The notes under the pieces are model-generated. The model searched no databases and was not told the origin of the DNA. It saw nothing but the letters and a program-made list of their open reading frames with translations. Source: Hyphomonas pacifica (lineage in GTDB: Bacteria > Pseudomonadota > Alphaproteobacteria > Caulobacterales > Hyphomonadaceae). Taken from it: 64,000 nt of DNA. This document shows positions 1-9,451 of the stretch, piece after piece (within the stretch, counting starts at the first letter, position 1; every line of letters starts with the position of its first letter). A program made the translations under genes and the position numbers. The stretch spans positions 1 through 64,000 of the forward strand of contig NZ_AWFA01000008.1 of NCBI RefSeq assembly GCF_000682675.1, in the 5' to 3' direction.

Positions 1-39
1 GCTCGAACCGCTGACCCTCTCGGTGTAAACGGAATGCTC
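1..39 (-). repeat. Partial tRNA-Val copy, putative att site (distal end of island)
   Basis: Bases 1-31 are identical to 6870-6900 inside the intact tRNA-Val(TAC) gene. After two mismatches, six more bases match (34-39 with 6903-6908). The shared block runs from the anticodon stem/loop into the T arm, the segment that tyrosine-recombinase elements usually duplicate on insertion. The copy continues beyond the left window edge, so its true length is unknown. It lacks the tRNA 5' half within the window and cannot be a functional tRNA. Confidence 0.75.
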
Positions 40-58
40 CCTTAATAACTACAACAGA

Positions 59-80
59 TTCGCTGTAAACTATGAGCGAA
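59..80. repeat. Inverted repeat, possible recombinase arm-type site (left)
   Basis: Arms ttcgct and agcgaa flank ten bases. The sequence gctgtaaacta (62-72) recurs at 6778-6788, just inside the other end of the island, in both cases followed by an agcga or agcgag block. Two similar short repeats just inside both ends of a tRNA-bounded segment resemble integrase arm sites. No integrase is present here, so this is inference only. Confidence 0.3.
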
Positions 81-139
81 TTTAGACTGAAACCTTGCGC
101 GAACATGTAAACCAACAAATCTGTCGGTAATCATCCCCG

Positions 140-1075
140 TCAATGCACGTTAATCTGATCGATCCTTCGCTCCGGTTCACTCCCATTTGGACAGCGAAGA
201 ATGCCTCCTCCTTGAAATGAGGCAAGATACTCGGTCGAAAATGGCGAAATGTTTCCAGGGTAGTAGTCCGTTGAGATGAACTGCGCTCCGGAATCAATTG
301 CGGCGCGCAGCCGCCGCTTGTCGTTGGTTCGGGCTTCCTTCGTACCGATGTCCGCTGCAACACGAACCAGAAATCCCTGAGCAACCAGCTTCTGTATCTC
401 TTCCTCATGTCCAAACAGATCCCAGAACATCATGAACGACGCCTCATCATCGGTAGTCGGGTATTGGGCAAACATGACCCGCCCCCTGAGAGACGGATGT
501 CCTTGTCTGTAGACTTTCGATGCCTTCGGCTTGTCTTCATCAAGAACGAACATAAATTTCTGCTGCGTATCAGCCAGACGCGGCCAACCCTTTTCAAGAA
601 TCGCTTGCCGGAGAGAGTCGGAATCGCCACGAACGTCATCCGGAACCAGCAACCGGCCTGGCCCGAATACTTCCAACAAGAGCTCGTCTATATCTGCTAG
701 CAATTCAGCATCAAAATTCGGTGGTACGAGCAGTCCACTGAATATATGATCATCTTTTAAATTGAGTGTTACAGTGATCAGCGTGTGCTCCGGATGCTGA
801 TCTGACCACTGCTTCAATGCGATCAGGCAATCCCGAAATGCCAAACAATGCGAGTAGTTGTCATACCCTTGAATGTGCATGACTTTGAAGCCTGTCTCAT
901 TGATGGAGGTCTTGCTGTACGGTGGGGGATCCCCTTCCCGCAAAAATTTCAAATTGGGTGGCTGCTCATACAAGCCACCCTCTGGGTCTGCGTAAAAGTC
1001 GAGCTCAAGCAATCGCAGTCCCAGGTCCAGTTGCACGTCCAGCGGGGGGTGCTCATACTCCAGCTTGCTCTTCAA
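140..1075 (-). pseudogene. PI-PLC (Ca2+-dependent, C1 type)-like protein, 5'-truncated
   Basis: The 311-residue frame resembles the Ca2+-dependent phosphatidylinositol phospholipase C1 family: LDLGLRLLELDFYADPEGG near residues 17-34 (metal-binding Glu/Asp region) and GFKVMHIQGYDN with a conserved His near residue 67. Family members normally begin with a signal peptide and a THNSY motif carrying the first catalytic His. Here the frame opens on a TTG immediately before the LEYEHPPL block. The 22 in-frame codons upstream contain no ATG, no recognisable THNSY and end at a TAG. The gene therefore lacks both export signal and one catalytic His and is probably a decaying remnant. It lies directly downstream of the TonB receptor on the same strand, so it was probably co-transcribed with it. 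The family assignment rests on motif memory, not a search. Confidence 0.6.
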
Positions 1076-1226
1076 GCCGGGCCGCAGGCGGGCAGGCCGA
1101 CCAAGCTCCCCGCAATAATTGTGTATTTTCCAAGTCGCGCTAAACCCAAACTATCAATCCCTTGTTCCAAAGCTAAAGACAGGAACCGGGGGCATCGCCC
1201 CGGCTCCCTTGAAGCATGCATCGTTG

Positions 1227-4001
1227 CTAAAATTGGTAGGTGAAACCGACCCAGTGCAGGGTTCCGGAGTCCCGCTCCTGGCGGAAATTACCAAAGCCGG
1301 TCTTCGAATCGATCGGCTCACCTGTCAGGTTGTTGGACCTCGCCTGTATGATGAGATGATCTGTCAGATTGTACCGCAATTGCGCACTGATGATGCCTCG
1401 AGCATTCCAGATGTCGTCGTCGGCGGGCGAACCTGACAATGTGTACAGGTACTCCGATTGGTAATTGTACGCCAACCTTGCTTCCAATTTTCCGTATTGG
1501 GCAAAGAGAGAAGCATTGAATATGTTTTCCGGTTGGCCAATGAGCGTCGGCAGCTTCCGCGTGTCTCCACCACTTCTAGTAACCGTCGCATCTGAACCAA
1601 CATAGGTGTAGTTCGCCGAGGCGCCCAGGAAGCCGAGAGTTGGATGGATGAAACTCAGATCGTTCAATACAGTTCCGATTTCAAAGCCCTCGATCTTATA
1701 GGTATCGAGGTTGATCGGAATACTTTCTGTCAGATCAACTGTTACGGCGTCTGCACCGGTACCACCGAAGGTAAAGGCACCATCGGGCGTCGGCGTAATG
1801 ATGACCCCTTGAGTTGTTACTCGAGGTGTTGCGATCTCATTTGAAATGTCCTTCCGGAACACAGCAACGGAGAAGAGGCCGTCGACCCACTTGGGATAAT
1901 ACTCCAACGAGATGTCGAAATTATCCGACGTTCGCGGTTCGAGGTCTGTATTTCCGCCTGTGATCGATGCCGTATTGAAAACCGGATCATACCGCAATGT
2001 GCTCTTGTTGGCCCGGAGGTCGTAATAACTCGGGCGGCTCACCGATTTTGAGACCGATGCCTTCGCAACAAGACCACTCGTCAAATCGTAAGTCACAAGC
2101 GCCCGCGGCAACCAATTGTCATAGCTGTTGCTGTCGGAGATCGAAACGAAACCATCATCATCCGCAGTGTCGGTCGTTGGACGGAAGCCTGTCGATTTTT
2201 CTTCGGTCTTTTCATAGCGGACGCCGCCGATGAACTCAAAAGGTCCAGCCTCATACTCCGCCTGAACATATCCAGAATAGACCGACTCCTCGACCGTAAA
2301 GTCATCGACAATGGAATTGCTGATCGAGCTTGCACGGGCAGTGAAATTTTCAGGATGCGCATCAAAATAACCTTGGATCGCATTCTGATCGGTGATCCAA
2401 AGAGGGTAGTTGTGCGTGCCGGTTGGTAACGTGAAAGACGTGCTCCCCACGAACAGACCGAGATTGTATTCGGACAGGGGAACGTCGCTGTTCAGGTCAT
2501 AGTCGACCCAGTCCTGATCCTGTTCCCTTTTGGTGTTCGAAGCCTTTACGCCAAACTTAATAGCGAAATCGCCCGTACCGATATCGAATGGCTTGCGATA
2601 ATCAATTTTGGCTTCGAGCGTTGTCTCTGTATTGTCGCTGCCCCAATATCGGTGCCCAGGCAGCGCGCCGTAAAGTGACAGGTCATTATACGCCGTTTCG
2701 TCCAGCAACGTCCGCACAGGGAAGTTTTCATTGTCGCCATGAAAGTCGTAGGTGTAGGCGAGACGTGTGTCACCAGTGGCTGTTGCATCAAAGCCAGTCC
2801 TGTACTGGGAAGTCGGATCGCTGAATTTTCCGACCCCATACAACGCATTGAACGACAACTCGTCGCGATCAAACAATGTATACTCACCACCTGATTGCAG
2901 GGACCATAGCTTGTTCGTCGTATCCCATGTCACGAGGGCCGGCGTTGACCTGACCTTCGCATCGACCAGGCCAGTATATTGCGTCTGGCCGATCGGCTGC
3001 GTATTCGCCCGCCAGTCCCATTCAACGCCTTGCCGGTCCGATTTCTCGAAAAAGTCGTAATAAAATCCCTGCACAAATGTGTAGGCATCGTCTGTCGGTT
3101 TCCATTCGAGTTTGGACAACGCGCCGGAATACTCACGATCATACCGCCAGGCAAACTGTGCATCGACCCGGTCAGCTGAATAGACATCCGAGGTCGACGC
3201 GAATGCATCGTCCGACGACAGTCGGGCGCCAGTTGCCGCATCGTAATAGTAATAGGTTCGAACTGCAGGATTGTAGAGAAACCGATCTTCCTTCGCATGA
3301 GTCCCCGCAAACGTGAAGCCAAATGCATCATTCTTACCGAACGTGTTTGAGTATGTTCCGGTCAGGCGATAGGTCGGACCTTTATCGGTTCAGCCCTCAT
3401 TACTGGAGAAGCCATAATCTGCTGACACATTGGCGAATGCATCTTCACTATCGAATGCACTGCGCGTCTTGAGGCTGATATAGCCGCCAATCGCCTGCCC
3501 CTCCAGGTCTGGGGTAAATGATTTGAAGACCTCGGCTCGCTTGAGCACGGATGACGGAATGACATCCAGAAGAACCGTGCGTTCATTATTGGCTGTCGAA
3601 GCAATGATCCCACCATCGAGCTGGGTGTAGTTGTATGTCGAATTCAGTCCACGGACCGATACATAGCCTTCCCGGTCAAACCTGAAATCCAGCTGAAGCG
3701 ATACGCCCGGAATGCGCCGCAGTGCTTCGGCGATATTGAAATCCGGCAGCTGTGCGATGTCATCGGCCGTCACGAAATCTGCAACAGCGTCTGTGTTTCG
3801 TTTTGCTTCAATGATCTCTTGGTTCTGGAGGCGCGCTCCGCGAACGACAACGACATCCTGAATAAATTCGGGATTTTCTTCCGCCTTTGAAATCACCCCT
3901 GTCTCATCATCAGCAAACGCGGCACCCGCAACGAATGCAATTGCTACAGGCGAAATGGCTCCGATGCACGTGAGCCGGCGAAAAGTCTTTCTTCCCAACA
4001 T
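1227..4001 (-). pseudogene. TonB-dependent outer-membrane receptor interrupted by one in-frame TGA
   Basis: Residues 1-203 carry a signal peptide (MLGRKTFRRLT... ending near AFA) and a TonB plug (RGARLQNQEI, ALRRIPGVSLQ, VSVRGLNSTYNYTQLDGG). The frame stops at TGA 3390-3392. The same frame then stays open for 90 codons with barrel-like sequence and continues through 630 residues ending HWVGFTYQF, a typical terminal aromatic strand. Total length is 924 codons including the TGA, normal for the Caulobacter/Xanthomonas receptor type. There is no frameshift: both halves are in one frame, so one base change explains the break. Options are a nonsense mutation (CGA or TGG to TGA), readthrough, or a sequencing error. 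The palindrome upstream and the divergent ROK gene suggest substrate-controlled expression. Confidence 0.85.
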
Positions 4002-4058
4002 AATCCCCTCCAGAGGTCTGAGTTAACCGATGGAAAGGCCCATAGCATCGGTATGCGA

Positions 4059-4087
4059 CAATTCAATTACATTACGTAATTGAATTG
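4059..4087. promoter_or_regulatory. Palindromic operator between TonB receptor and ROK regulator
   Basis: caattcaattac (4059-4070) and gtaattgaattg (4076-4087) are perfect 12-bp inverted arms around five bases. The centre also contains the self-complementary attacgtaat at 4071-4080. It sits in the 154-bp divergent gap, about 60 bp upstream of the receptor start and about 70 bp upstream of the ROK GTG. AT-rich palindromes of this kind are typical targets of ROK/NagC/Mlc-type repressors. The likely binder is the adjacent regulator, giving auto-control and control of the receptor. Confidence 0.65.
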
Positions 4088-4155
4088 ATAATTGTTGTCC
4101 CTGTATGAAACGTGTAGCAGTTAGGCCACGGCAAATGATTTGGAGGTGTAAGCGA

Positions 4156-5313
4156 GTGACTCAGACGTCGGCCCCACAGCTGTCATCCAATGAACGACGC
4201 GTGCTCGACGTGATCTGGCGAGAAGGCCCAATCGCGCGCCAGGATATTGCCAGACTGACTGGGCTCACGGCAGCATCCATTACCCGTTTGACAAAGCAAC
4301 TCGATGATGAGGGACTTCTAGCCACAAGTCTTGAAAAGACGGGATCCCGAGGCAATCAACGCCAGCCGATTTCGATCAATGCAGACGGCGCGCTCTCATT
4401 CGGCGTGAGCTTCTCCCATACCTTTGTTGATGTGGGCCTGATGAACCTGGGGGGCGAACTGCTGCAGACCATCAGGTCCCCCCTTTCAAAGCCGACGGTG
4501 GAGAATGTCGCCAGCGCTGCGAAAGCCGGGGTCGCCAAACTCTTGTCGTCCAGTCGCCGAGATAGAAACAAAATCATCGGGATCGGCTTTGCGCTTCCGG
4601 GCGATTTTGCATCTGAGCCACCTTACCTGCAGGCCCACGCATATTTTCCAGCACTCCGAGGGGTCGATATCCTGAAGAGCCTGGAACCGCACTTTGAGTT
4701 TCCCTGCTTTGTCGAGAATGATTGCAACACCGCCGCTTTCGGTGAACGCGTGCTCGGCTTCGGGAAGCTTTACAGCACATTTCTTTCAGTATTCGTGGGT
4801 CACGGAATTGGAAGCGGGCTTATCATTGACGGAAATCTGTTACGTGGCGTTCACGGAAACGCCGGAGCCATCGGTTATATGTATCCCATGGATCAGCCAC
4901 GCCCCTCCGGACAGGATTTATTCGAAACCGCTCAGAAAAACGGCGTTGCCGCACAAGACTTTTCCGACTTCGAAAAACTGCCCTTCGAAAAAAATCCACC
5001 GATCACGAAATGGTGCGAACGTGCCGGTAGTCAACTGTGCGAAGGTCTTAGCATTGCAGCGCGCCTTTTCGATCCCGAGGCAATCATCATCGGCGGGCGC
5101 CTGCCCCCGCCCTATCTCGACGCTCTTGTTCGATGGATCGATGTCGACGCTTTCTGTGCGGCCGGCGCTCCATTGCGCAAACCCGTCATTCGCGCGTCGG
5201 ACCTGGGCGCCAGAGCAGGTGTGATCGGAGCCGCTGCCTTGCCGATTTACCATACATATCTAAGGTCAGACATGACGCTCGCGAGTGACAACTATGTCAA
5301 CGGCAGACGTTAA
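4156..5313 (+). CDS. ROK-family transcriptional regulator
   Basis: Start chosen at GTG 4156 (385 aa) because GGAGGT at 4142-4147 lies eight bases upstream. The ATG at 4105 in the same frame has no such site and lies close to the operator. Residues 12-58 form a MarR-like winged helix-turn-helix (NERRVLDVIWREGPIARQDI, then LTGLTAASITRLTKQL). The rest is a ROK sugar-kinase-like domain with GIGFALPGD (about 142-150), VENDCNTAAFGE (about 186-197) and GHGIGSGLI. The usual zinc motif CxCGxxGC is absent: where relatives have a GH followed by cysteines, this protein has GYMYPMDQPRPSG. It is therefore probably a ligand-sensing repressor and not a sugar kinase. It overlaps the symporter gene by 20 bp, so the two form an operon, and it probably controls the divergent TonB receptor as well. 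Confidence 0.85.
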   Translation: MTQTSAPQLSSNERRVLDVIWREGPIARQDIARLTGLTAASITRLTKQLDDEGLLATSLEKTGSRGNQRQPISINADGALSFGVSFSHTFVDVGLMNLGGELLQTIRSPLSKPTVENVASAAKAGVAKLLSSSRRDRNKIIGIGFALPGDFASEPPYLQAHAYFPALRGVDILKSLEPHFEFPCFVENDCNTAAFGERVLGFGKLYSTFLSVFVGHGIGSGLIIDGNLLRGVHGNAGAIGYMYPMDQPRPSGQDLFETAQKNGVAAQDFSDFEKLPFEKNPPITKWCERAGSQLCEGLSIAARLFDPEAIIIGGRLPPPYLDALVRWIDVDAFCAAGAPLRKPVIRASDLGARAGVIGAAALPIYHTYLRSDMTLASDNYVNGRR

Positions 5314-6616
5314 AAAGATTGCTGCGTCTGGAGAGACTATTTCTCGTCTCGCCCTCGCCGGCTTTTCCACAGCCAACTTTGGTAAGTCGGTTTTCTGGTC
5401 GGCTGCGGATACATTCTGTCTGGTATTCGCAACCGACACTTTGGGGATCGAGCCGACGATTGCTGGTTCGATTATTTTGCTGACAATCGTCTGGGATGCA
5501 GTTTCAGACCCCTTGGCTGGCACGATGATTGACCGTGTTCAATGGCTCCACAAGCGCTATGGAACCCTCATCGCCGTTTCAGCACCTGTCAGTGCAATCC
5601 TTTTGTTACTTACCTTTGCAACTCAATTTCTGCCTGTCCCGGCGAGAGGTCTTTGTTTTGCTGCCTCACTCTTGGGATTCCGGACCGCTTTCACCCTGAT
5701 CGATATTCCTGAAAATGCTCTGTTCTCCAGGATTGCCCGAACCAAGGGTCATCGAATATTTGGCGCTGCCATCCGCAAGCTGATGGCGACTTTCGCGGCT
5801 GTATCCATCTCAATGAGCACCGGTTGGATATTCGTAGAAACAGCCCCATTTACGGAAGGCACCCGCATCTTCATCGGTGTTTGTGTCTTTGCACCAATTG
5901 GCGTCTTGGCTATTTACTGCGGCACAAAGAGCATCGGCAAATGGGATCGAGCGATTTCAACCACTGTGACACGCCGCCGGATTGGGTTCGCAAGCTTAAA
6001 ACCCACTCACCCCGCCTTTGGACTAACGATTCATGTACTTCTGGTGTCCCTCGGCATGTCATTGTTTATGGCCGCGTTGGTCTACTATGCGAGGTTCATC
6101 CTTGGAGACAATGCATGGTTTGCATCGGCCATGACAACGCTACTGATTGCGCAGACTGCTGGTATATTCCTGTGGGGATATCTTGCGACCCGATGGACGA
6201 CGACTTTAGCATTGATGTTGGCGACTTGCTTGGCGTCATTCTCATGTATTTTCTTTCTGGCACCTCCATCATCCGAAGTGCTTATTTTTTCCTGCTGTGT
6301 TTTTGGGGTATCCGCTGGCGGACTGAATTCACTTCGATGGGCCCTTGCACCGACCGCAATTGATCAAGCTGAAGAAATCCTTGGGTACCGAGATGAAGCC
6401 GCCACAATGGCATTGCTGAGTCTGTCGATAAAATCCGCGATCGGACTTGCGTCTGTTTTTCTAGGAATGGCCTTATCGGCTTCCGGATATGAAAGCGGCG
6501 CAGTTGCGGATGAGGCGCAATCAATGACGTTCAGATTGGCCGTTGCAGCCATATCGACCCTGGTCATTCTCGCTGCAATCGTACCGCTTAGACAAAAGAA
6601 CTTTGTTGTTCACTAG
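5294..6616 (+). CDS. MFS sugar symporter, GPH (glycoside-pentoside-hexuronide) type
   Basis: The 440-residue, strongly hydrophobic protein has about twelve membrane helices. Its N-terminal region NFGKSVFWSAADTFCLVFAT followed by WDAVSDPLAGTMIDR matches the GPH/MelB arrangement, in which the WDAxxDPxxG segment lies in helix 2 and its Asp helps cation-coupled sugar uptake. The start is the ATG at 5294; a GTG at 5285 is an alternative. Translation is coupled to the ROK gene by overlap. With the TonB receptor it would complete uptake: outer-membrane receptor, then inner-membrane symporter. The substrate cannot be read from sequence. Base composition is visibly AT-richer than the chromosome to the right: line 6061-6120 has 28 G/C of 60, against 44 of 60 for 16381-16440. 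Confidence 0.75.
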   Translation: MSTADVKKIAASGETISRLALAGFSTANFGKSVFWSAADTFCLVFATDTLGIEPTIAGSIILLTIVWDAVSDPLAGTMIDRVQWLHKRYGTLIAVSAPVSAILLLLTFATQFLPVPARGLCFAASLLGFRTAFTLIDIPENALFSRIARTKGHRIFGAAIRKLMATFAAVSISMSTGWIFVETAPFTEGTRIFIGVCVFAPIGVLAIYCGTKSIGKWDRAISTTVTRRRIGFASLKPTHPAFGLTIHVLLVSLGMSLFMAALVYYARFILGDNAWFASAMTTLLIAQTAGIFLWGYLATRWTTTLALMLATCLASFSCIFFLAPPSSEVLIFSCCVFGVSAGGLNSLRWALAPTAIDQAEEILGYRDEAATMALLSLSIKSAIGLASVFLGMALSASGYESGAVADEAQSMTFRLAVAAISTLVILAAIVPLRQKNFVVH

Positions 6617-6777
6617 CAGAGCCCAATTAAACCAAGTTGCCCTGCGCTATGATCCGCTCCGTGCCACAAATCGCCTGCAAATTTTGTTCACAACATCGCA
6701 CAAGATAAAAACGGGGATGAATGCCCCTTAAGGGACCAAGTGCGGATCGCGCAGCACGTGCACTTACCCTGCTTCGA

Positions 6778-6804
6778 GCTGTAAACTAGCGAGCCAGTTT
6801 ACAG
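6778..6804. repeat. Inverted repeat, possible recombinase arm-type site (right)
   Basis: ctgtaaact (6779-6787) and agtttacag (6796-6804) are perfect 9-bp arms around eight bases. The left arm is shared with the repeat at 62-72. The element lies about 50 bp inside the 3' end of tRNA-Val. The surrounding 6617-6853 holds no gene that I can support. Confidence 0.3.
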
Positions 6805-6853
6805 TTCAGATACACAGCGAATAACCCACAACACCTTGTAATACTTTAGTTTA

Positions 6854-6929
6854 TGGTGGGCGGTAACGGGCTCGAACCGCTGACCCTCTCGGTGTAAACG
6901 AGATGCTCTACCAACTGAGCTAACCGCCC
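6854..6929 (-). tRNA. tRNA-Val (anticodon TAC), intact, with encoded CCA
   Basis: Read on the minus strand, the 76-nt gene has acceptor GGGCGGT/ACCGCCC, a D arm AGCTCAGTTGGTAGAGC, an anticodon arm with stem TCTCG/CGAGA and loop TTTACAC (anticodon TAC, valine), a T arm with GGTTCGAGCCC, discriminator A and encoded CCA at 6856-6854. The 3' half is duplicated at the window start, which marks this gene as an insertion target. Confidence 0.95.
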
Positions 6930-7021: not shown

Positions 7022-9451
7022 TTAATGCGGCCCTTGGTGCGGGCGGGCCGGATCAGCCGCACCGGCACCTGGCTGGCCCGCGAGCGAGGCCTGCAGGGCC
7101 GCCTCATCGGCTTCCGACCACTCGATCGGCGTCAGCGGACGTGTCAGCGCGATCTTCAGCACTTCATTGATGTCCGACACAGGCACAATCTTCAGGCCGG
7201 TTTTCACATTCTCCGGAATTTCCTCGAGATCCTTCTCGTTCTCTTCCGGGATGAGCACCGTCTTGATGCCGCCACGCAGGGCCGCGAGGAGCTTCTCCTT
7301 CAGGCCGCCAATCGGCAGAACACGTCCCCGCAGGCTGATCTCGCCGGTCATGGCCACTTCCCGGTCGACCGGATTGCCGGTGAGCAGGGAGACAATAGCG
7401 GTCGTCATGGCGACACCGGCTGACGGGCCATCCTTCGGCGTCGCGCCATCCGGCACGTGCACGTGGATGTCGGTCGTGTTGAACACGGTCGGCTTGATGC
7501 CCAGCATGACCGAACGCGAGCGCACCAGCGAGCTGGCCGCCTGGATCGATTCCTTCATCACATCGCGCAGATTGCCCGTGACCTTCATATTGCCACGTCC
7601 CGGCATCTTGACCGCCTCAATGGTGAGCAGGTCGCCGCCGGTTTCCGTCCAGGCGAGGCCTGTGACCGCGCCCAGCTGGTCGGTCTCATCTGCCAGGCCG
7701 TAGCGGAATTTCCGCACGCCTGCGAACTCGGCAAGATTGTCGGACGTGATGGCCAGCGTTGCGCCATCCTGATCGGCCAGCTTGCGCACGGCCTTGCGGG
7801 CAAGGCGTGCAATCTCGCGTTTCAGGCTACGGACACCGGCTTCGCGGGTGTAGTAGCGGACGAGGTCGCGGATCGCTTCATCGGACACCGTCCACTCACC
7901 TTCCTTCAGGCCGTGATCCTCACGAACCTGCGGGATGAGGTGACGCTTGGTGATCTCCACCTTCTCGTCTTCCGTGTAGCCGGCAATGCGGATGATCTCC
8001 ATCCGGTCCAGAAGCGGCTGGGGCATGTTGAGCGAGTTCGCCGTCGTCACGAACATCACGTCTGAAAGGTCATAGTCGACTTCCAGATAATGGTCGTTGA
8101 ATGTCGAATTCTGCTCAGGGTCCAGCACCTCCAGCAGCGCAGACGCCGGATCGCCGCGATGGTCCATGCCCATCTTGTCGATCTCGTCCAGCAGGAAGAG
8201 CGGGTTGCCCGATTTCGTCTTCTTCAGGGACTGGATGATCCGTCCCGGCATGGAGCCGATATAGGTCCGGCGGTGGCCGCGGATCTCGCTCTCGTCGCGC
8301 ACGCCGCCCAGCGACACGCGCACAAAGTCGCGTCCCGTGGCTTCGGCAATGGAGCGGCCCAGCGAGGTTTTACCCACGCCCGGAGGGCCAACGAGGCATA
8401 GGATCGGGCCCTTCATCTTGCCCGTGCGTTTCTGCACGGCGAGATATTCCAGAATCCGCTCTTTCACCTTGTCGAGACCATAATGGTCATCGTCGAGCTG
8501 TGTCTCGGCCTTCTCCAGATTGGTCTGGATGTCCTTGCGCTGCCCCCATGGCAGGGCGAGCAGCCAGTCGAGATAATTGCGCACAACGGTCGACTCGGCA
8601 GACATCGGAGACATCTGACGCAGCTTCTTGATCTCGGCCTCGGCCTTGGTGCGCGCCTCTTCCGACAGCGGGGCGTCAGCAATCTTCTGCTCCAGCTCGG
8701 CCAGCTCATCGCGTTCACCGCCATCGCCGCCTTGCTCACCCAGCTCGCGCTGGATCGCCTTCATCTGCTCGTTGAGGTAATATTCGCGCTGGGTTTTCTC
8801 CATCTGCCGCTTGACGCGGTTTTTGATCTTCCGCTCCATCTGCAGCATGCCCATCTCGCCTTCCATCAGCGCGAAGACCTTCTCAAGACGGTCCTTCACA
8901 TCCGGAAGTTCAAGCAATTCCTGCTTTTCAGACAGTTTGACAGACAGGTTCGAGGCGACCGCATCGGCCAGGCGGCCAGGCTCGGTCAGCGCGGCAATCG
9001 TGGTAACGGATTCCGGCGGAATCTTGCGGTTCAGCTTCACATAATTCTCGAACTGCTCCTGAACGGCGCGCATCAGGGCCTGCACGTCTCCGTCAGCACC
9101 TTCAGCCTCGTCCAGACGCTCAACCTCGGCTTCGAAATAGTCGCCGCGATCGTGCAGCTGGTTGAGGCGCGCACGGGTCTGGCCTTCGACCAGCACTTTG
9201 ACCGTGCCGTCCGGCAGCTTCAGCAATTGAAGAATGGTGGCAATCGTACCGACCGCGTGCACGTCATCGGCGCCCGGATCGTCTATCGCTGCGTCGCGCT
9301 GGGCGACGAGCATGATTTCATTATCGGCTTCCTCGATCATTTCGAGGGCGCGCACGGATTTGTCACGTCCCACGAAAAGGGGCGCAACCATGTCTGGAAA
9401 CACAACGATGTCCCGAAGCGGCAACACCGGAAGGTTTTTGATTCTTGGCAT
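7022..9451 (-). CDS. lon: ATP-dependent protease Lon
   Basis: The 809-residue protein has the full Lon layout: N-terminal substrate-binding LON domain (about 1-200), coiled-coil linker (about 200-260), AAA+ ATPase with Walker A GPPGVGKT (355-362) and Walker B FLLDEID (419-425), and a C-terminal serine-lysine protease domain. The catalytic Ser677 sits in PKDGPSAG and Lys720 in GGLKEKLL. It degrades misfolded and regulatory proteins in the cytosol as a hexamer. In Caulobacterales, Lon also degrades cell-cycle factors such as DnaA and CcrM (established for Caulobacter). The ATG is preceded by GGAGGC. A strong terminator follows, so it is a single-gene unit or the end of one. The last residues ([14 protein letters not shown]) form a low-complexity tail. 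Confidence 0.98.

Follow-up and report, generated by a model that had tools for sequence, protein, structure and literature searches.

The left end of a 64,000-nucleotide stretch of the Hyphomonas pacifica genome raises the question of whether the segment between the contig edge and a tRNA-Val gene is a complete genomic island or one part of a larger one, and of what could have placed it there when it carries no integrase. The stretch (the window; bases 1-64,000 of the 80,172-bp contig C8) belongs to an assembly of 3.42 Mb in 93 contigs (genome G000). An intact tRNA-Val(TAC) gene, the target gene, occupies positions 6854-6929 on the minus strand. The native flank on its 5' side holds an 809-aa frame (7022-9451, minus strand) that we take, from its sequence, to be lon; tRNA-Val and the first part of lon were contiguous in at least 17 of 60 relatives (match over query positions 1-735 or more, at least 77%).

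The tRNA-Val duplicate and the empty site

Window positions 1-31 (plus strand) were identical to positions 6870-6900, and extension to positions 1-39 introduced two mismatches (95%), just as an earlier note on this DNA had described. Position 1 of the window is base 1 of contig C8; the contig edge thus cuts the repeat, and for this reason its remainder was looked for on other contigs. The first 31 bases of contig C3 matched, on the minus strand, positions 1-31 of the tRNA-Val query at 100%, and the C3 and C8 ends have 15 identical bases in common. When the two contigs were joined, the fragment amounted to 47 nt corresponding to tRNA-Val positions 30-76; it starts beside the anticodon loop, in agreement with the claim that the identity block begins at the anticodon region. 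Positions 1-31 would therefore represent part of an attL-type end, with the remainder of the 47-nt duplicate on C3:1-31, and the 3' part of the intact tRNA-Val the attR-type copy. The exact 16-mer of the tRNA-Val 3' end occurred twice (C8:6854-6869 and C3:16-31), with no third exact copy in the G000 assembly. With C3 and C8 joined, ARAGORN detected no tRNA gene spanning the junction, which ruled out that the copy at positions 1-39 is part of a second complete tRNA gene, the circumstance that the earlier note had regarded as fatal to its proposal. Leftward extension had also been expected to uncover an integrase; it yielded the remainder of the duplicate but no integrase (no PF00589 match on C3).

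Comparison of the tRNA-Val locus in relatives, which the earlier note had recommended, revealed an empty site. Of the 60 relatives, G016 matched the tRNA-lon stretch best (94%, among the matches listed), and in this genome, which is without the insert, lon lies on one side of tRNA-Val and a homologue of C3 directly on the other. C3:1-18690 matched the tRNA-adjacent flank of G016 at 87.7%, and a predicted empty site composed of the C3 flank and the tRNA-lon stretch aligned to G016 over 1,705 bp (90.2%, five small gap openings). The tRNA-adjacent flank of G012 is likewise a C3 homologue, there reached after a 1.25-kb remnant in which the C-terminal part of a related recombinase (66%) lies close to a 19-nt tRNA-Val fragment. 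The empty site in G016 indicates that the insert forms a single unit, about 6,869 bp when measured from repeat to repeat, rather than a module of a larger island, and that C3 is its old flank. The description of the segment as a genomic island bounded by tRNA-Val was thus borne out by the 47-nt copy of the tRNA 3' end found at its far boundary and by the empty site in a relative; an integrase of its own, usual in such islands but not obligatory, was not present.

Composition and cargo of the island

The island had been judged by eye to be richer in A+T than the sequence to its right, and the GC content agreed (0.520 for positions 40-6853 versus 0.593 for positions 6930-64000). In 500-bp steps, the mean was 0.521 for the island (n = 14) versus 0.593 outside it (n = 114). 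Composition by itself is no proof of an island because 17 of the 114 outside steps had a GC content at or below that of the highest island step.

Four genes were recognized in the island. The first (140-1075, minus strand) encodes an N-terminally shortened protein of the PI-PLC-C1 family (PF16670), for which the profile match began at position 36 of 329; its frame has 336 aa versus 401 and 432 aa in its two relatives in the genus. The family was found in three of 42 same-genus genomes, G000 included, and the other two proteins were 31% identical. The second gene (1227-4001, minus strand) corresponds to a TIGR01782-like TonB-dependent receptor whose frame is interrupted by a single in-frame stop at 3390-3392; separate searches with the two open pieces each gave a score below the TIGR01782 cut-off. 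The stop may be a nonsense change or a sequencing error, which the sequence cannot distinguish. Together, the broken receptor and the shortened PI-PLC suggest decay of the cargo. The third gene (4156-5313, plus strand) encodes a ROK-family protein with a MarR-type helix-turn-helix, NagC/Mlc-like but below the cut-offs of those models, that is probably a sugar-responsive regulator. The fourth (5285-6616, plus strand) encodes an MFS_2/GPH-like sugar symporter below the cut-off of the GPH model. Symporter matches were obtained in 62 of 385 genomes of the class, G000 included, the best others by E-value being 29-30% identical, and no relatives were found in the genome-contig collection. The receptor and the symporter agree with the claim of accessory uptake genes without an integrase, and all five open pieces of the island matched non-recombinase families, none of them a recombinase or transfer family. 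Neither protein family searches nor BLAST against the element described below for G025 recognized any part of an integrase or transfer gene in the island, and the seven PF00589 matches in G000 included none on C8 or C3.

Recombinases and element ends at tRNA-Val in relatives

In G025, a tyrosine recombinase (378-aa frame) adjoins tRNA-Val, and its use as a query gave matches in 18 of 42 same-genus genomes. Full-length copies of 96-100% identity were present in six (G025, G005, G014, G031, G003, and G002), in all of which the recombinase lies 1.5-2.1 kb from tRNA-Val; the search of the 42 genomes gave no match in G000. The G035 recombinase was 57% identical to the G025 type. All six carriers possessed a fragment of the tRNA-Val 3' end elsewhere (48 nt, exact, in five and 32 nt at a contig edge in G002). 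Across the other 36 genomes, where counts are to be read as lower bounds, the matches listed included fragments of at least 24 nt in G000, G036 (40 nt, 97.5%), G004 (46 nt, 95.7%), and G011 (24 nt), and a nearly full, degenerate tRNA-Val copy in G007.

The distance from tRNA-Val to the fragment in G025 was 59,762 bp (∼59.8 kb). Ten proteins scanned in this interval corresponded to the recombinase, Fic, TrbI, CagX, VirB4-like, VirB11-like, a coupling protein, a helicase-like protein, DUF3363, and ParB_N, with the DUF3363 protein giving a relaxase match just under the cut-off. This gene content indicates that the G025 element is, in all likelihood, an integrative conjugative element; the conjugation genes were read in G025 only among the six carriers, and the distal part (L069, L046) was compared by BLAST alone. 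No genes were common to the island and the G025 element, BLAST over the whole element finding the tRNA copies only, and two weak receptor matches in G025 fell in the flank, outside the element. Descent of the island by simple deletion from a G025-type element was not borne out because of this lack of common genes over the whole element.

Several further observations were made on the recombinase. The plasmid collection contained only weak relatives (10 records, all <60% identity). A copy of 97% identity was found in a Henriciella MAG and one of 64% in a Mizugakiibacter MAG (L089 and L091, both MAG matches), and because of these matches the conjugative element may cross genera if the MAG binning is right. 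In G014:C10 (L073:613-1545), a 48-nt tRNA fragment is followed by a second, truncated recombinase relative (66%), an arrangement that looks like tandem accretion.

The ends of the island carry repeated copies of TGTAAAC. The left end (32-120, plus strand) has this motif at 64-70 and 106-112, and the right end (6770-6853, plus strand) has it at 6780-6786 and its reverse complement, GTTTACA, at 6797-6803. Of eight copies in the 64-kb window, six start at 24, 64, 106, 6780, 6797 (minus strand), and 6893; those at 24 and 6893 belong to the tRNA core and the four at the island ends are non-core. The background in G000 was four copies in 159,794 bp, which gives a post hoc Poisson P of 7e-11 for four non-core copies in about 260 bp. 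The left-end copies lie 40 and 82 bp from the core TGTAAAC at 24, and the 40-bp spacing recurred in four of the six recombinase-bearing elements (G025, G003, G005, and G002). All six have TGTAAAC at −64 and −52 from tRNA-Val and, at the opposite end, 92 bp away from the core; the right-end motifs differ in that the island has an inverted pair at −74/−57, whereas the elements have the direct pair at −64/−52. We surveyed the right (R) ends in 23 of the 24 same-genus genomes with an identical tRNA-Val among the matches listed (G026 was left out). TGTAAAC occurred within 150 bp in eight of the 23 R ends (the island, G006, and the six elements), TGTTAAG took its place in two (G035 and G012), and 13 had neither motif. 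These data are consistent with TGTAAAC being a putative arm-binding site of the recombinase.

The R end of the island was most similar to that of G006 (z = 13) and to a distant copy in G004 (z = 8-9.5), followed by G036 (z = 5-6), G064 (about 4), and G007 (about 3.6), in a comparison that leaves out G004 at its tRNA, G032, and G027. Seven other non-element R ends gave z values of −1.1 to 1.6, and similarity to the ends of the conjugative element was weak (R end, z = 1.6-1.9; L end, z = −0.0 to 3.4), as was that of the left island end to G004 (z = 3.4-3.9). A z near 4 is not strong because pairs that look unrelated reached 3.6 (G036/G019), 3.3 (G016/G007), and 4.8 (G028/G033). Since unlinked pairs reach z = 3.6, G064 and G007 count mainly through their links to G006 (G064-G006, z = 23-27) and G036 (G007-G036, z = 16-18). 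The R ends of G036, G007, and G064 are without an exact TGTAAAC, and the G004 copy carries TGTTAAG on its left side. No recombinase was recognized in the parts read of those islands whose R end is similar (G006, G064, G036, G007, and the G004 copy), and no PF00589 match fell inside the G064, G036, or G007 islands. A search for PF00239 serine recombinases in seven genomes found none inside the tRNA-Val islands of G000, G006 (covered to 5.3 kb beyond tRNA-Val), G064, G036, and G007; in G035, a match was located at C31:13616, on the element side and about 12 kb away from tRNA-Val.

The gene content of these islands was also read. G036 (L047:6002-18272) harbors a second tRNA-Val island without a recognized recombinase, 12.2 kb in length with a 40-nt tRNA fragment, whose genes relate to zinc/metal uptake (CobN-like, TonB receptor, CobW, MerC, FUR-like below the cut-off, ZrgA, and DUF3299) and whose outer flank adjoins tRNA-Val in G032 and G018. 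By eye, the gene set at tRNA-Val in G007 is similar. An element common to G064 (L076:7751-18606), G006 (L057), and G004 (L070:8873-17789), with DNA pieces 77-94% alike, consists mostly of unknown genes, LprI being the sole recognized one among the proteins scanned; it sits at tRNA-Val in two genomes, and the right-end copy of G004 is 617 kb from its tRNA-Val. The same right-end sequence was encountered far from the lon-linked tRNA-Val at G007:C2:305683, where it adjoins the degenerate, nearly full tRNA-Val copy, and at G036:C1:1508981 and 1507837 (L105, L106).

Origin of the island and comparison with known systems

We favor the reading, with a probability of about 0.78, that window positions 1-6853 together with the 3' part of tRNA-Val form one complete, integrase-less, CIME-like island, probably placed by a G025-type recombinase. 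It draws on the target-site duplicate, the empty site, the lack of a recombinase in the island, the recombinase-bearing elements at the same site in relatives, the common end motif, the resemblance of its R end to that of other islands, and the rarity of its cargo. Counting against it are the C3-C8 join, which is based on the 15-nt overlap and synteny, the inverted orientation of the right-hand motif pair, the weak overall similarity of the ends to those of the conjugative element, the lack of genes in common with the G025 element, the absence of TGTAAAC from several of the similar R ends, the signs of decay in the cargo, and the presence of TGTAAAC in the anticodon loop of the tRNA-Val target itself; the seven PF00589 proteins elsewhere in G000 count against naming the G025-type recombinase. 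The enzyme that made the island most probably belonged to the same type as the recombinase of the tRNA-Val conjugative element found in relatives. Such a tyrosine recombinase would cross the attachment site of the element with the anticodon-loop region of tRNA-Val(TAC), so that the element would restore the 3' part of tRNA-Val at one end and the original 47-nt 3' end would be displaced to the other. The island ends may still work, and the island would move only with a recombinase of this type supplied from outside because it has both att copies and the end motifs but is devoid of recombinase and transfer genes. As to whether it is a fossil or still movable, the apparent decay of two cargo genes would favor the former and the kept ends the latter.

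A different history, to which we assign somewhat less than even odds, is that an autonomous conjugative or mobilizable element was stripped of its integrase and transfer genes through internal deletion, so that part of its cargo is all that is left, between att sites that are unusable. It overlaps with the favored reading, which does not depend on the origin of the island or on its present activity. The in-frame stop in the receptor and the shortened PI-PLC are consistent with such a remnant, and G012 exhibits decay of this kind at the same site, with its recombinase piece and 19-nt fragment; however, both end copies and the four non-core TGTAAAC motifs are present in the island, no integrase or transfer-gene piece was recognized in it, and its R end is nearer to those of islands without a recognized recombinase than to that of the known conjugative element.

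It is also conceivable, although we consider it unlikely, that the island lineage is non-autonomous by design and depends for its movement on the recombinase of the tRNA-Val integrative conjugative element, acting in trans, its members being cargo satellites rather than decayed elements of that type. The observations behind this proposal are the common right end, with no recognized recombinase, in G000, G006, G064, G036, and G007 at tRNA-Val and in G004 elsewhere, together with cargo that differs among them (sugar uptake, zinc uptake, unknown genes); some copy the end motif of the conjugative element.

The suggestion of the earlier note that the segment belongs as a module to a larger or tandem island, the recombinase being located past the left edge of the window, is now very improbable. 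Accretion does seem to occur at this tRNA in relatives, as illustrated by the fragment and truncated second recombinase relative in G014 and by G064, which has an internal degenerate core (seen by eye and absent from the blastn-short listing) and a second R-end copy. In G000, however, the sequence that joins at position 1 is C3, the tRNA-adjacent flank in G016, the exact 16-mer is found at two genome places only, and C3 and C8 are devoid of PF00589 matches; the larger or tandem island was rejected on these grounds. Homologous recombination in the flanks or an assembly artifact, with an incidental tRNA fragment, is scarcely credible, for although the fragment coincides exactly with a contig edge, C3 and C8 agree over 15 nt and the 47-nt boundary is nearly that of the 48-nt fragments in five relatives.

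If the favored reading of one complete, recombinase-placed island is correct, the empty site records how a small nutrient-uptake cassette that lacks its own recombinase entered a Hyphomonas-group bacterium at one tRNA gene, and the relatives point to the likely recombinase and conjugative element. Should the ends still work, the locus would be a modest natural system for asking whether islands without an integrase persist as live passengers or as fossils. No title on this tRNA-Val site was found among the Hyphomonas papers listed, which is not proof of absence.

The island is a fresh example of an already known kind of integrase-less island. It has the same target as the Hyphomonas tRNA-Val conjugative element, a duplicate of nearly the same length (47/48 nt), and the TGTAAAC end motif. 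Unlike the ∼59.8-kb G025 element, it has neither a recombinase nor type IV secretion genes, and the integrase, relaxase, and conjugation genes of an ICE are accordingly absent from it. CIMEs, in one account, keep attL and attR and have no integration or transfer genes (PMC5704250). The island resembles them in that both copies are retained as predicted sites, its five open pieces match families other than those for integration or transfer, and a conjugative element with the same target exists in relatives. For descent from an ICE/IME, the site and motif are in common with the G025 element but no genes are. Accretion and cis-mobilization are reported for other CIMEs there and in titles that it cites (PMC5704250); for the present island both would be hypothetical, and its inner sequence is unrelated to the conjugative element. 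In Dehalococcoides, 15 ssrA islands without an integration module are reported and are offered as possible cis-mobilizable elements (PMC3146451). The island is like these in having no integration genes, a stable-RNA gene with direct repeats of its 3' end, and metabolic cargo; it differs in its target, tRNA-Val rather than ssrA, and probably in its enzyme, a tyrosine rather than a serine recombinase (PMC3146451).
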